Assembly (NCBI GenBank): GCA_023379845.1
Contig: JAMCPG010000034.1
Coordinates: 16,428 to 80,427 of the forward strand
From: Thermoplasmatota archaeon
GTDB taxonomy: Archaea > Thermoplasmatota > Thermoplasmata > Thermoplasmatales > Thermoplasmataceae
Length of the DNA: 64,000 nt
Direction of reading: 5' to 3'
How positions within the stretch are numbered: position 1 is the first letter of the stretch; each line of letters starts with the position of its first letter. This document shows, one piece after another, positions 8,289-34,402 of this stretch. A program made the translations under genes and the position numbers. The notes below the pieces were generated by a model. The model was given only the letters and a program-made list of their open reading frames with translations, ran no database searches and was not told the DNA's origin.

Positions 8289-8772
8289 TAGCAATAATGA
8301 CCAGCTTTTCCTAACAAAAGCTCCATTTTTTGCCTGTCAATGAAATACGCTTATGATATTAATTGCGTTTCGACGTAGTGTCCAGAATTATGTGTAAGAT
8401 TAAGGATACCTCTCCCTGAACATCCCTGTGATCTCATCCTCCAAAAACGACTAGTTTTTCTTTGAATCCAGAGAATTCTTCATACTTGTATTACCAAAAG
8501 CATGTCATTTAGGCTCAACTTATTACCAGAATGCTGATTCTTTTCGTCTAATCTCACTTTTGTTAGCCTTACTCCTCTTTATGAATGAGATAATAGAACG
8601 TTTAGATTAGAGTAATCCGCTCCATTTGACTTAATTTATCATGTTTTCCCAACGTTTGATTACGCAATGCTCACTCTTTCTGAATTGATAATTTAATATA
8701 AATGAACGGGAGGGCATAATTTTCCGCCCCTCCCCAATATTTGCTTATTTCGTTTAATCCCTGACCAGGACT

Positions 8773-9696
8773 TTACTGCAATATCTTGTCTGCAAAGCTG
8801 TTTGCAGGATCGACCAGTGATTTTCCATTCTTTTGAACAGCCTGCAGCGCAGGGGGTGAGCTAAGGTAATCCTTCACATGTTCGTTGAGCCTCCTCGGGA
8901 AGCTTGGAATAGTATTGTTCTCGTAGAAAACTCCAGTCGGGATCCTCTTGTCCATTTCAAGCGCTTTAACGAATGCACGCTGGTAAATATCCTCATAATG
9001 ATCGACGTTGCTCTCATTCACTGTTGGGTTCCATGACTTGTCGTCCTCAAGCTTGTATACCTTCTGCCTGTAAACTTCCATTGTGTTTATGTTATTGTAA
9101 GTTGGGCATGGTTGAAGCACGTCAATGAGAGAAGATCCATCATGCATTATTGACCTCTTTACAATCTCTTTCAGCTGCTTTGTATCAAAGGAAAAGCCCC
9201 TGGCAACAAACGTATAACCGGACGCAAGTGCCAGCGCAACTGGATTGACCTGCCCAAACACGTTAGGCCTAGTCAGCGACTTTGTCTGCATTCCAAGCGC
9301 CATCGTGGGAGCAGCCTGCCCCTTTGTGAGACCATACACCTGGTTATCAAAGAGTACTACAGTTATGCCGGTGTTCCTTCTGCCTTCGGCTACAAAATGC
9401 CCTGCACCGATCGAAAGAAGATCGCCGTCTCCCCCTGTGAGCACTACTTTCAGGTTTGGGTTTGCCAGCTTCAAGCCCGTCGCGAAAGGTATACCCCTTC
9501 CGTGAAGTGTGTGCATCCCCGCAGCATTGATGTAGTGCGGGGTCTTCCCTGAACAGCCAATTCCAGAAACCATTGCTAGGTTCTTAGGATCCAGGTTGAG
9601 TTCTGTAAATGCCTGCGTAAGTGCCGTCAGAATGCCAAAATCACCGCATCCTGGACACCAGTCAATTGCTACGTCAGTTCTAAAATTATGCGCCAT
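8773..9696 (-). CDS. korB: 2-oxoacid:ferredoxin oxidoreductase, beta subunit
   Basis: WCPGCGDFGILTAL, GIGCSGKTPHY, GGDGDLLSIGAGHF TPP motif. Confidence 0.93.
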   Translation of the reverse strand: MAHNFRTDVAIDWCPGCGDFGILTALTQAFTELNLDPKNLAMVSGIGCSGKTPHYINAAGMHTLHGRGIPFATGLKLANPNLKVVLTGGDGDLLSIGAGHFVAEGRRNTGITVVLFDNQVYGLTKGQAAPTMALGMQTKSLTRPNVFGQVNPVALALASGYTFVARGFSFDTKQLKEIVKRSIMHDGSSLIDVLQPCPTYNNINTMEVYRQKVYKLEDDKSWNPTVNESNVDHYEDIYQRAFVKALEMDKRIPTGVFYENNTIPSFPRRLNEHVKDYLSSPPALQAVQKNGKSLVDPANSFADKILQ

Positions 9697-12002: not shown

Positions 12003-12543
12003 GAAAGTACTCGTAGTAACTGGAATGCCGGGCGCAGGCAAGGATGAATTTATTTCAGTGGCACGTGAAATGGGATTCGCCGACTTTCACATGGGAAATA
12101 CCGTGAGAAAGTACGCTGCTGTTGAAGGGATACCGTCTACGGATTCAGATATCGGAGACTTTGCCTCAAGAGAGAGACTTCTCAAAGGGAAGGATATATG
12201 GGCAAGAAGGACAATAGAGACAATCAGCGATTCTGACAGCATTATAATTGACGGGCTTCGCAATAATGAGGAACTTGATTACTTCAAGAGCGTAGAGGGA
12301 CATGTCTTCGTGGTCGCGATATTTGCAAACAGGGCCACACGGCTTTCCCGCATATTGAAGAGAAACAGGCCGGATGACGTAAAAAACCTCGAGGAACTAA
12401 TAGAAAGAGACAACAGGGAACTCTCCTGGGGCATAGCGAGGGCAATAGTTCTTTCCGATTATCTTGTAGTCAATGATACATCCCTGGTTCATTTCAGGGA
12501 AGAGTCCCGTAAACTTCTTCACGAAGTCTCGGAGATTTCATAA
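11995..12543 (+). CDS. UPF0200 / dephospho-CoA kinase-like P-loop protein
   Basis: KKVLVVTGMPGAGKDEFISVA P-loop, HMGNTVRKYA, SIIIDGLRNNEELDYF. Confidence 0.85.
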   Translation: MAKKVLVVTGMPGAGKDEFISVAREMGFADFHMGNTVRKYAAVEGIPSTDSDIGDFASRERLLKGKDIWARRTIETISDSDSIIIDGLRNNEELDYFKSVEGHVFVVAIFANRATRLSRILKRNRPDDVKNLEELIERDNRELSWGIARAIVLSDYLVVNDTSLVHFREESRKLLHEVSEIS

Positions 12544-13320
12544 AGATTTCGAGTAAGCGACGATTGCGTCAAAAAATTGCTTTCCCGCCGCTGGTTCCAG
12601 TTTTTCAGCAGCCTGGTATGCGTAATATATCCTCTCAGGGTGTGGCATAAGGCCGATTGAATTGCCATAAGAATTTGAAAGAGCTGCGATGTTGCCGTAT
12701 GATCCATTTGGGTTCCATGGATAACCAGCCGGATTTCCTTCAGGGTCAACATACTGGAAAAGAATGTTTCCACCATCACTAAGATAGTTGAATGTGCTCT
12801 CTGGATAATCAAGGACAATTCGACCCTCAGAATGGGCCACTGGAATCTCCCAGGCGTTCCTGCCGACATAAGCTGATCCAATCATTCTGTTCCTGGTCGC
12901 TATCCGGACAAAAACTTTCCTGCACTCAAACCTGCCGGAAGAATTGAACGTCAGGGTGACCCTCTTTTCAAGGCGAGATTCTCCAGGAAGTAGCCCGAGT
13001 TCAACCATCACCTGGAAACCGTTGCATACACCTATAATCGGCCTGTGTGAATCATTAAATTCAGAAATATCCCTTCCGGAGGCAGCTTTCACTCGCGCAG
13101 CGAAAATAGCCCCCGCCCTTACGTAATCGCCTGCAGAGAATCCGCCTGGAAAAAATATGATGTCAAAGTCTGTCAGTTTCTTTCTACGGTCTTCAAGCTG
13201 CTTTATGTGAACATATTCCGGTTTTGCGCCGGATCGCCTGAAGGACTCAAAAGCCTCGTACTCGCAGTTAGTTCCTTCCATCCTGACTATAGCAGCGGAG
13301 GGCGAGCCGGAAGAATCCGT
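12538..13320 (-). CDS. purQ: Phosphoribosylformylglycinamidine synthase subunit PurQ; conserved N-terminus extends upstream of the ATG at 13281
   Basis: GGFSAGDYVRAGAIFAAR, GVCNGFQVMVELGLLPG, HSEGRI, MPHPER. In-frame upstream residues TDSSGSPSAAIVR precede MEGTNCE; the first residue after the rpl40e TAA is taken as the left limit. Confidence 0.88.
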   Translation of the reverse strand, partial: TDSSGSPSAAIVRMEGTNCEYEAFESFRRSGAKPEYVHIKQLEDRRKKLTDFDIIFFPGGFSAGDYVRAGAIFAARVKAASGRDISEFNDSHRPIIGVCNGFQVMVELGLLPGESRLEKRVTLTFNSSGRFECRKVFVRIATRNRMIGSAYVGRNAWEIPVAHSEGRIVLDYPESTFNYLSDGGNILFQYVDPEGNPAGYPWNPNGSYGNIAALSNSYGNSIGLMPHPERIYYAYQAAEKLEPAAGKQFFDAIVAYSKSL

Positions 13321-30042: not shown

Positions 30043-31488
30043 TCAGATTCTTCGATTGCCGTTGGCAAGGTATGCAAGAAGAACTGGAAACACGGCCCAG
30101 ACTAATCCAATAAGTATCACAAATGACAATGGGAAATACAGGTCAGATGGAATGTAGTTTGGCTGAAAGTATGATGTTATTCCAGGTGAGATAGAGTTCG
30201 CAAACAGGTCAAGAAAGTTAGTGGGGCTCAATAGATAAATGAACTGAATGTAAGCGGGCAGGCTCGATGGAGTGTTTCCATAGGCTGAAAGTATCTCGCT
30301 TCCGCCGAACAGAGAGCCAAATGCAAATAGTACAAACAGGGAAATTGTGAAATAGAAACCGTATCTGCGGAAACGAGAAAATAAAACCGAAAAGCCCATA
30401 ATTGACATCATGGCGATAAGCACCCCAAAGATCACTGATTCTATCAATACGACCGGGAGGCCTCGACCTGCCAATAAATAGAAGCTTATGTCATCAAATG
30501 CCACGATTCCCAGCAACGTCAGCACCATGACAATTGCACTGCTGGTGAACCTGTCAAGCATCAACTTTCTCTTTGAGATAGGCTGTGAAAGAACAAGGTC
30601 CAGGGTTCCGTTTGCCAGCTCCCGGGAATACATCATTTCGATAACAATAATGGCAGTCACGGTAATTAGAAAACCCGTAACTGCCCAGATTTCGCCCATA
30701 AAACTGATTGTGTTCGCCAGATCGGGCGGTGGCGCATAAACCGATCCGCTAAATGTATAATATGTTGAGTTATTTGAATTGCCGCCAATATACAAAAAGA
30801 ACAATTTATCGGGATCTGAAGGTCCGCCATAGACTCCGTTGACAGTGAGAAGATGAAAATGGGAGTACGTTCCCACAAGAGTCAGGTTTACCGGTTCGGG
30901 TGAAAATGAGCTTGGTGTTATGTTTTTGCTGTACAATGTGACAGGAGGTGCAGACGTGCCGTTTGGGCCAAAATATGCAATGAATGGTATTGAATGATAT
31001 GGATTCGATGCATTTATAACAAGCTGTGGAACAATTGAATAGCTGTTGTTTCTGACTGCGATGTTTCTTAGATTGCCCTGACCGGTGAAAGAGAAGTCCT
31101 TTGACAGTACCTGAATATTTAAGATCACGCCACTTAATTGTGAGTAATTTCCAAGAGTAAGATTCGCGTATCCTTCATCATTGCTGACAAGATCTGGAAA
31201 AGTCATGTTCTGCGGAACGGTGGGCGACCCAATCTTGCCGAATACCGTTATGTTTATTTCAATACCCCTAAGAGGCTGTCCCATGCAGTTCATTGAATAG
31301 GTTGATAAATTTACGGTACCATTGTCGTCATAAATCCCGGACAGGACGTAATTCTGCTCGTTTAGTGGCACTCGAGCGGATGTGTAAATAACCAGAAATG
31401 AAGTTATCAGGATGAATGCAACCAGGAATATGAAGGTGGGTTGCTTGACTATCCTCTTAAGATAATAAGAGAGCCCCTTTATTATCAT
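30043..31488 (-). CDS. ABC-2 type transporter permease with large extracytoplasmic domain
   Basis: Multiple TM segments, ELANGTLDLVLSQPISKRKLMLDR motif; 4-nt overlap with ABC ATPase. Confidence 0.8.
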   Translation of the reverse strand: MIIKGLSYYLKRIVKQPTFIFLVAFILITSFLVIYTSARVPLNEQNYVLSGIYDDNGTVNLSTYSMNCMGQPLRGIEINITVFGKIGSPTVPQNMTFPDLVSNDEGYANLTLGNYSQLSGVILNIQVLSKDFSFTGQGNLRNIAVRNNSYSIVPQLVINASNPYHSIPFIAYFGPNGTSAPPVTLYSKNITPSSFSPEPVNLTLVGTYSHFHLLTVNGVYGGPSDPDKLFFLYIGGNSNNSTYYTFSGSVYAPPPDLANTISFMGEIWAVTGFLITVTAIIVIEMMYSRELANGTLDLVLSQPISKRKLMLDRFTSSAIVMVLTLLGIVAFDDISFYLLAGRGLPVVLIESVIFGVLIAMMSIMGFSVLFSRFRRYGFYFTISLFVLFAFGSLFGGSEILSAYGNTPSSLPAYIQFIYLLSPTNFLDLFANSISPGITSYFQPNYIPSDLYFPLSFVILIGLVWAVFPVLLAYLANGNRRI

Positions 31489-32390
31489 TCGTGAGCACCA
31501 GTCTTCTGTGCAAAGTATTCCCCAAGGATATTATCTGTCGAAACAAACTCTGCAACCAGGTATCCCGCCCTGACCAATTCTGCGTTTATCGTTGAGGGAT
31601 CCAGCTTGACGCCTGAAACGGTTATCTGATCCTGTCCTATTGAGACTGTTCCATATGCCTTGAGACGCTCCAGTAGTTTTTCATCCGGGTTTGATACCCT
31701 CAACCTGATAGTGGATTGACCCTGGGAGAGCAAGTCCGCTAAAGTAACCGGTTCAGTCGTCTCTCCGTTGATGATAAGAATGACCCGATTTGCTATTGAC
31801 TGGAGCTCGCTTAGCACATGAGAACTAAGAAGGATCCCATGCCCGGATGATCTCAGCTCGGATATCTTGTCCTTCATGAATTTTATACCTTCTGGATCAA
31901 GGCCGTTGAACATTTCGTCGAAGAGGTAATACTTGGGATTCCCAAGCATTGCAACCGCAATTGACAGGCGTTTTCTCATGCCCATGGATAATCTTGTTAC
32001 CTTCAACCTCTCCGCTCCAGAAAGGCCGACCGTCAGGAGAACGTAATGAGCGGTCCTTTCAATATCAACTCGATCTATTCCCCGGAGTGAGGCGAAGTAC
32101 TTGACCAGCTCAAAGATTGAGCTTTCTGTTTCGAAGAGCGGGTTTTCCTGAACCCATGCTATCTTTTCTGAAACAAATTCTTTGGCGCTTGCAGGGTCGA
32201 TTCCATCCACAAGAATCTTTCCAGAATGGGGTGACATAATGCCTGCCAGTGTTTTGATGGTCGTGGTTTTTCCCGAACCATTCAGGCCGGCGAGGCCGAG
32301 AACTTCACCTTCCTTAATGCTAAGAGTAAGATCTCTAAGAACCAGCTTTTTGCCGTATCCAACAGAAACATGAAGAGCTTCTAGGCTAAT
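31485..32390 (-). CDS. ABC transporter ATP-binding protein; true start probably ATT at 32390
   Basis: Called ORF (to 32237) lacks Walker A. Upstream in-frame sequence ISLEALHVSVGYGKKLVLRDLTLSIKEGEVLGLAGLNGSGKTTTIKTLAG restores it; AAGGTG precedes the ATT. LSMGMRKRLSIAVAMLGNPKYYLFDEMFNGLD signature/Walker B. Confidence 0.85.
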   Translation of the reverse strand: MSLEALHVSVGYGKKLVLRDLTLSIKEGEVLGLAGLNGSGKTTTIKTLAGIMSPHSGKILVDGIDPASAKEFVSEKIAWVQENPLFETESSIFELVKYFASLRGIDRVDIERTAHYVLLTVGLSGAERLKVTRLSMGMRKRLSIAVAMLGNPKYYLFDEMFNGLDPEGIKFMKDKISELRSSGHGILLSSHVLSELQSIANRVILIINGETTEPVTLADLLSQGQSTIRLRVSNPDEKLLERLKAYGTVSIGQDQITVSGVKLDPSTINAELVRAGYLVAEFVSTDNILGEYFAQKTGAHE

Positions 32391-32413
32391 ATATTGACAC
32401 CTTCAGAAAAAGA

Positions 32414-34402
32414 TTACCTGCCCTTGAATTCAGGCTCCCTTTTCTGCATGAAAGATGAAATTCCCTCTTTTAAGTCTTCGGTTCCATAGACAAGTCCCAT
32501 TGAAATTGCTTCCATTGTTAAACCGTCGTCGAGAGATGTTTCAGACCCTTTGTTGACCAGAAGTTTCGCAAGATAGGCTGCCCCCGGGGCGACTTTCCTG
32601 GAAAGATCATGGGCAAATTTCTGCACGTCCTCATCTATTGTCTCTGCCCCAAATGTCCGGGTCACAATTCCCATGTCAAAGGCCTCCTTGCCGGTTATCC
32701 TTTCAGCCGTAAGGATGAGATAGGATGCTCGTGAAGAACCAATGAGTTTTGCAAGACGCTGGGTTCCTCCCCATCCCGGCACTAGACCTCTCTGTAACTC
32801 AGGGAACCCTATCTTTGCTTCCTGTGACGAGACACGAATGTCGCATGCAAGTGAAAGCTCGAACCCGCCTCCAAGCGCATACCCCTTTATTTCTGCTATC
32901 GTTATTTTATTCATTTCTGACAATAGGCGGAAAATGGATTGCCCACGCCTTGACGCCTGCATGAAATCTATGCCGCCTGAGAAAAACTGAGAAAGTTCGG
33001 CTCCCGCTGAAAATACTGTACCCTTTCCTGTTACAACGACAACGTTGACTTCCTTGTCTTCCCTTACCTCGAGAAGTCTTTTCTCCAGTCCATCCAATAC
33101 AGCCGAGTTCAGGAGATTTAACCTGCCATTGTTAAGATAAACTGTTGCGACCCTGTCCTTCTTAACCATTAACACAGGTTCGTCGATCTGCGCCTCTGCC
33201 GTGGTAGATGGGGGCTTCTCTTCTTTCCTGATGCCTGTATTTCCTGAAATTACCTCTTTCAGTTTTCCTTCGGCAATTGATCTGGCCGGTGCAAAAACGG
33301 AAGACTCAAACTTGGAGCCAAGGTCTTCAAGCTTCTTCTTTATTTCTGCGTTGGTCAATCCCTGTGCAACAGATATAGGGCCAAAAGGCCTGTTCATACC
33401 CAGGCGCACTCCAGTCTCTATGTCATCAGGTGAAGCAACGCCCTCTTCAATAAGCTTTACTGCCTCGTTGAGTTCGATCGCGAGAACGTCCATGAGCTCG
33501 ACCTTGCTTGACGGCTCCCCAGAAGGGATCTGGGCCTTTCCGTTTTCCCAGGTATAGAAGCCATGACCAGTCTTCTTTCCGAGCTTGTTCTGTTCCATCA
33601 TCTGCTTGAAAACCGAGCATTTTCCGTATTCTGGAGATAGTTCCTTTGCATAGTACTCAAGAGAGTGAACGACCGTGTCTATACCGACATAATCCATTAA
33701 CTCGTATGGGCCCATCGGCAGACCCTGCGATTTGGCAAAAAGGTCGATGGAGGCTGGCGTATCTATCTTCCGATCCAGCAGAAGGCAGAAGAAGAGGCTT
33801 TCCGGCGCATTGATCCTGTTCACCACGAAGCCGGGAGAATCTTTAACCACACGGATAGGGGTCTTTCCTATCTTGCGGGATAGATCATAGACTGCCTCGA
33901 AGGTCCGGTCATCGGTTTTTTCACCCTTCACAACCTCGACAAGCTTGAGCACGACAGGCGGATTGAAGAAGTGCATCCCAACGATTCTTTGAGGCCTTAG
34001 GCTCCCATTCTGCAGTTCAGTTATCCTGAAGTTGGATGTGTTTGATGCTATAATTGCCTCTGGTGAGCATGATGATTCGACCTCCATAATCACGTTTCGC
34101 TTTATATCAAGCACCTCGGGAACCGCTTCAACTATAAGGTCGGCCTTGGTAACTGAGTTCTTTATATCTGTCGAAAATGAAAGTCTTGCAAGTGTATCGT
34201 TCATAGCCGACTCGTTTATCTTTCCGCTATCCTTCATTTTTGAAAGGCTCGCTTGAACGTTCTGCCTTGCCCGATCAAGGAAGTCCTGGGAAACGTCGTT
34301 GACCACGACGTTCAGGCCTGAGAGCGCAAGAACCTCAGCTATGCCGTGACCCATTATTCCTGCACCTATTACGGTGGCATTTTTGATTTCCAGGAATATC
34401 AC
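32414..34402 (-). CDS. Fused 3-hydroxyacyl-CoA dehydrogenase / enoyl-CoA hydratase
   Basis: VIGAGIMGHGIAEVLALSG (NAD binding), VGMHFFNPPVVLKLVEVV; C-terminal crotonase domain AEIKGYALGGGFELSLACD, GFPELQRGLVPGWGGTQRL. Confidence 0.94.
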   Translation of the reverse strand: MIFLEIKNATVIGAGIMGHGIAEVLALSGLNVVVNDVSQDFLDRARQNVQASLSKMKDSGKINESAMNDTLARLSFSTDIKNSVTKADLIVEAVPEVLDIKRNVIMEVESSCSPEAIIASNTSNFRITELQNGSLRPQRIVGMHFFNPPVVLKLVEVVKGEKTDDRTFEAVYDLSRKIGKTPIRVVKDSPGFVVNRINAPESLFFCLLLDRKIDTPASIDLFAKSQGLPMGPYELMDYVGIDTVVHSLEYYAKELSPEYGKCSVFKQMMEQNKLGKKTGHGFYTWENGKAQIPSGEPSSKVELMDVLAIELNEAVKLIEEGVASPDDIETGVRLGMNRPFGPISVAQGLTNAEIKKKLEDLGSKFESSVFAPARSIAEGKLKEVISGNTGIRKEEKPPSTTAEAQIDEPVLMVKKDRVATVYLNNGRLNLLNSAVLDGLEKRLLEVREDKEVNVVVVTGKGTVFSAGAELSQFFSGGIDFMQASRRGQSIFRLLSEMNKITIAEIKGYALGGGFELSLACDIRVSSQEAKIGFPELQRGLVPGWGGTQRLAKLIGSSRASYLILTAERITGKEAFDMGIVTRTFGAETIDEDVQKFAHDLSRKVAPGAAYLAKLLVNKGSETSLDDGLTMEAISMGLVYGTEDLKEGISSFMQKREPEFKGR

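Follow-up and report, generated by a model that had tools for sequence, protein, structure and literature searches.

The genes that concern us lie on the minus strand of the window, by which we mean the whole stretch of 64,000 nucleotides that was analysed. They, and the short sequences on which the argument turns, are as follows.

32414-34402, minus strand: 3-hydroxyacyl-CoA dehydrogenase/enoyl-CoA hydratase fusion gene (named by inspection), upstream and co-directional
32403-32405, minus strand: in-frame stop TGA, closing the frame four codons 5' of the ATT
32398-32403, minus strand: AAGGTG, Shine-Dalgarno-like, with a 7 nt spacer to the ATT
32388-32390, minus strand: ATT, the proposed start codon, whose column is compared among congeners
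31485-32390, minus strand: ATPase of an ABC-2 type exporter, 301 codons plus stop when read from the ATT
32265-32288, minus strand: Walker A GLNGSGKT, residues 35-42 (G35-T42), by direct reading
32235-32237, minus strand: earliest ATG in the frame (codon 52), where the mechanical call puts the ORF start; it lies behind Walker A
30043-31488, minus strand: cognate ABC-2 permease, 481 aa (PF12679, 3e-14)

The fusion gene ends with a TAA (32416-32414) 23 nt before the ATT, and at the other end of the ATPase its stop overlaps the permease start (ATGA). The ATPase frame is open from stop to stop over 305 codons (32402-31485) and reads, after the TGA, AGG TGT CAA TAT ATT AGC CTA GAA GCT. A sequence-only reading of this DNA had pointed out that the ORF called from 32237 starts behind the P-loop, that an ABC N-terminus can be read in frame upstream of it, that a TGA lies only a few codons further up with no ATG, GTG or TTG between, and that AAGGTG sits exactly 7 nt before the ATT; direct reading and the alignments given below bear out all of this, and we find none of the three usual start codons from the TGA to the ATG at 32237. 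Of the span it assigned to the gene, 31485-32413, the lower end is right; the coding sequence proper is 31485-32390, and 32413 is the base adjoining the neighbour's TAA. The 16S 3' end of the congener WH2.bin97 is GGATCACCTCC, complementary to GGAGGTGATCC, and GGTG stands at an equal distance from the start codon in WH2.bin97 and in a second congener, FK5.bin124.

Judged by domain content, the frame encodes a full ABC exporter ATPase. The ATPase matches PF00005 (ABC_tran) at 1e-27 (97.8 bits against a cut-off of 25) and the permease matches PF12679 with 53.4 bits (cut-off 27.2). Counted from the ATT, residues 2-244 align to positions 2-245 of the GldA profile TIGR03522, residues 4-244 to NosF 5-241 and residues 3-223 to 4rvc 4-224, which places the ATT within about one residue of Met1 in solved homologues. 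The protein misses the cut-offs of the named families drrA (143.6 against 312.45 bits), GldA (122.2 against 402.6) and galliderm_ABC (147 against 309.75). It nonetheless shares with drrA/GldA/NosF-like ABC-2 exporter ATPases its Walker A, the signature LSMGMRKRL, the Walker B region YLFDEMFNGLDP, a C-terminal extension and a neighbouring ABC-2 permease, and differs from them in its start codon alone. If methionine is inserted at the ATT, the predicted N-terminus is M-SLEALHVSVGYGK.

To compare the start codon across species we use five congeners of the window's genome (G000, an uncultured Thermoplasmata archaeon with a draft assembly of 61 contigs, 84% complete); the wider comparison set consists of metagenome assemblies of 62-85% completeness, two of them read in part. 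Close orthologues of the ATPase are few: apart from the window's own copy there are two, about 90% identical, in FK5.bin124 (G002, locus L031) and WH2.bin97 (G004, L032), flanked by the same genes. Intact permease orthologues adjoin the ATPase in both (83% and 82% identical, respectively), and the gene order around the ATPase is retained in these two as well as in G005 and G001. Aligning orthologues at the ATT, a check that the sequence-only reading had proposed, gives ATT in the window, ATT in FK5.bin124, ATG in WH2.bin97, TTG in G005 and ATG in G001. FK5.bin124 is an independently assembled congener species with 85.6% DNA identity, an intact protein and a changed context round the ATT. In G001 the equivalent place holds a 47% identical ATPase that starts ATG GCG ATT GAG GCC GTT, and in G005 the first codons are TTG AGC ATA GAG GCA GTT behind GGAGGG. 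The operon in G005 (L087, about 8640-9181, minus strand) is decayed, with frameshifts, stops and missing pieces, from which it follows that the transporter is dispensable. The ATG at codon 52 of the window is ATA in WH2.bin97 and CTT in FK5.bin124.

The pattern of substitution shows where coding constraint begins. In the 51 codons that precede the ATG at 32237, the window and WH2.bin97 differ by 31 substitutions, 28 of them at third and none at second positions, a bias which indicates that the frame does not stand open by chance. Restricted to codons 2-51, differences at positions 1, 2 and 3 number 1, 0 and 20 against FK5.bin124 (one residue in 50) and 3, 0 and 27 against WH2.bin97, with dN/dS (NG86) of 0.011 and 0.016 (overall range 0.011-0.037). 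Immediately upstream, from codon -8 to codon -1, the corresponding counts are 4, 3 and 3 (six of eight residues differ) and 4, 5 and 5 (seven of eight), so that this stretch is unconstrained. Over codons 2-301 dN/dS is 0.05-0.06, and between the two ATT species it is 0.062 over 300 codons at a dS of 0.67. Taken together, this pattern argues that the gene is functional and that its coding part begins at or next to the ATT. A nucleotide tree built from the upstream gene pairs G002 with G004 and puts G000 outside them (0.999); a protein tree gives no resolution on this point. By these comparisons the ATT would either be ancestral to the three species, with reversion to ATG in G004, or have arisen twice, and under either history ATT alleles have persisted.

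We conclude that the transporter gene very probably starts with ATT, and we assign a probability of roughly 0.84 to the reading that an intact, selected ABC-2 exporter ATPase is translated from AUU (32390) by near-cognate initiation. The sequence-only reading had left two options, a rare AUU start or a base error; the former is supported by the comparison, and the latter is very unlikely. A base or assembly error hiding a true ATG would suit a window drawn from the draft assembly of an incomplete genome, but it would have to coincide with the same error in FK5.bin124, a separate assembly of another species with a changed context, and to judge from the alignment this explanation is already close to refuted. 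It is improbable, though less extremely so, that the gene is a young pseudogene which has lost its start: the visible decay of the orthologous operon in G005 shows that the transporter is dispensable, yet that decayed copy has kept an NTG start, and both ATT species have intact ATPase and permease frames and the low dN/dS given above.

The remaining alternatives move the start elsewhere. A conserved out-of-frame GTG (32400-32398) could initiate translation followed by a frame shift, or could open a four-codon leader, GTG TCA ATA TAT TAG, whose stop overlaps the ATT, so that ribosomes finishing the leader would reinitiate at the ATT. The arrangement GTG NNN NNN NNN TAG is conserved in both ATT species, and termination-reinitiation has been reported for archaea (PMC10666635). 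However, the GTG belongs to the Shine-Dalgarno sequence, the TAG arises automatically from ATTAGC, the mini-frame is missing in the ATG species and a slippery sequence is absent; we regard this as highly improbable, and its reinitiation version also takes the ATT as the start. Just as remote as a base error is a start further in, at the CTG of codon 16 or at an internal GTG or ATG. CTG appears to be used elsewhere in the window's genome and codon 16 is CTG, CTG and GTG in the three species, but a protein started there would lack its first strand (strand 1) and, at residue 12, the A-loop tyrosine, which are strongly constrained. FK5.bin124 has an in-frame GTG at codon 30, where the window has GTT, and this counts against the ATT reading; a start at that GTG would delete the first strands and the A-loop, which weakens the alternative. 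A frameshift fusion with the upstream gene was also considered and rejected: a shift before the TAA (32416-32414) meets the TGA at 32405 in the ATPase frame.

How might a ribosome start at AUU? In the scheme we favour, the AAGGUG 7 nt upstream would place the archaeal 30S subunit on the AUU, the operon mRNA, in which the preceding gene stops 23 nt earlier, would deliver ribosomes to it, and an ordinary Met-tRNAi(CAU) would pair with AUU by a third-position mismatch, much as at the AUU of infC in bacteria; the same loosened choice of start would operate in other genes of the genus, mostly as CUG. The start at AUU, the insertion of methionine and the contributions of the Shine-Dalgarno sequence and the operon are what we infer from the arrangement of the locus. 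The tRNA at L173 11401-11327, which we take to be the initiator with a stem of archaeal type, has a CAU anticodon and a GGG/CCC stem, and that of WH2.bin97 is identical over the part compared. Because this tRNA is ordinary, near-cognate initiation helped by the Shine-Dalgarno sequence and operon delivery seems likely. The factor aIF1 favours discrimination against non-canonical starts (PMC6237735). A search for it (PF01253) finds it in five of five congeners and does not find it in the window's incomplete genome; its presence in the congeners makes its loss an unlikely cause.

To see how far other genes of the genus share this feature, we compare about 0.90 Mb of the window's genome (window included) with 0.77 Mb of WH2.bin97, which yields 327 orthologous frames with a coding pattern. 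The scan is limited to frames with a third-position substitution bias, a first automatic scan having been swamped by shadow ORFs. In 296 of the 327 pairs an aligned ATG, GTG or TTG lies near the 5' end (203 ATG/ATG, 39 TTG/TTG, 35 GTG/GTG and 19 mixed), a count that takes the best-scoring pair and does not prove individual starts. A handful of pairs are left without a canonical start before the conserved sequence, several of them with CTG behind a Shine-Dalgarno sequence. A census by Shine-Dalgarno sequence only, in which other codons turn up as background, gives a small excess of CTG that cannot stand alone. The sequence-only reading had not noticed this recurrence of CTG, one case of which lies within the window. 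The genes concerned include the following.

L135 15222-15875, plus strand: ComB-like 2-phosphosulfolactate phosphatase (PF04029), reading GAGGAGGACTCTGAA CTG AAA ATT GAA
L159 7181, plus strand: flippase-like (Polysacc_synt) protein with a CTG start (L268-L272)
1696-2772 of the window, minus strand: membrane protein, the second window gene without a canonical start, CTG at 2772-2770 behind AAGGTGA (2785-2779)
L119 3424-4422 (start 4365), minus strand: Trm5-like tRNA methyltransferase with an apparent CTG start

The best of these is the ComB-like phosphatase. Its start column across 30 family genomes (L238-L267) holds CTG in 7 and ATG, GTG or TTG in 22, with one alignment shifted by a codon; the CTG genomes are all five of genus g1 with the gene plus two of g10, and the predicted N-terminus, if methionine is inserted, is M-KIEILDGR. 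For the flippase-like protein CTG is found in all five g1 genomes having the gene, with an SD-like sequence in most. The membrane protein, with the 5' context TGAAGGTGAAATTGA CTG, has its CTG directly after a TGA and no ATG, GTG or TTG across the first 60 codons; CTG is present in all four g1 species with the gene, preceded directly by an in-frame stop in three. In the two genomes compared, the CTG of the Trm5-like gene forms a CTGA overlap with the apparent stop of the preceding gene, and position 2 of the Trm5_N profile falls on residue 1; WH2.bin97 also has a GTG two codons further in, which offers an alternative start. Several conserved genes of the genus thus appear, from these alignments, to start with CTG.

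AUU starts are known in bacteria, in infC and pcnB of E. coli. The window's ATPase resembles these in that AUU replaces AUG in a start column that is conserved and has a Shine-Dalgarno sequence upstream, and differs in that the ribosome is archaeal and lacks IF3, the gene is an ordinary transporter with no sign of autoregulation, and sister species use ATG or TTG. A survey of start-codon switches found that 61,358 ancestral AUG starts had given rise to 2 CUG and 1 AUU, and 5,080 GUG starts to 1 CUG and 1 AUU (Belinky et al., 2017; PMC5622118). Those switches, like ours, are changes to CUG or AUU in the start column between close relatives. By our count, starts of this kind number at least four to five among the roughly 300 genes compared in one genus, which is high by comparison, although the two counts are not fully comparable, because starts in the survey depend on annotation, and counts made that way come out too low for starts of this kind. 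The start codons named in a review of archaeal initiation are AUG, GUG and UUG (PMC7531240), and a literature search that omitted most subscription journals found no paper on AUU or CUG starts in archaea. AUU and CUG starts as such are already known; it is their recurrence in one archaeal genus that looks unusual. Such genes are missed or truncated by normal gene-calling. We suggest tentatively, at somewhat less than even odds, that in this genus, and perhaps its neighbours, CUG, AUU and possibly ACG or AUA start at least one to two percent of conserved genes, stably over species, and that in Thermoplasmata such genes are systematically shortened or lost by standard callers. This genus-wide pattern is a more interesting lead than the single ATPase: a lineage whose ordinary genes stably keep AUU and CUG starts would supply natural test cases for the strictness of archaeal initiation, and such starts expose a blind spot of gene callers restricted to three start codons.

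Three further genes are recorded here as observations. The agmatinase gene just outside the window (L151 14005-14913, plus strand) adjoins aIF5A and has no canonical start in the window's genome, where the candidates are ATT or CTA(A); at the overlap G002 has TTG, and G004 and G001 have CTG, and conservation is uninformative because the 5' end overlaps aIF5A. In PurQ (12538-13320 of the window, minus strand) the first ATG lies inside the first strand and the frame is closed by the PurS stop; the ACG right after that stop is a candidate start, and in each of the five g1 genomes that carry PurQ the open frame is 260 codons long. Finally, an apparently secreted phosphoesterase with a signal peptide (L149 8533-9148, plus strand) has a strong Shine-Dalgarno sequence, GGGAGGTGA, and its context at 8533, GGGAGGTGAGTACAT ACG ATA AAG, offers only ACG or ATA as a candidate start.
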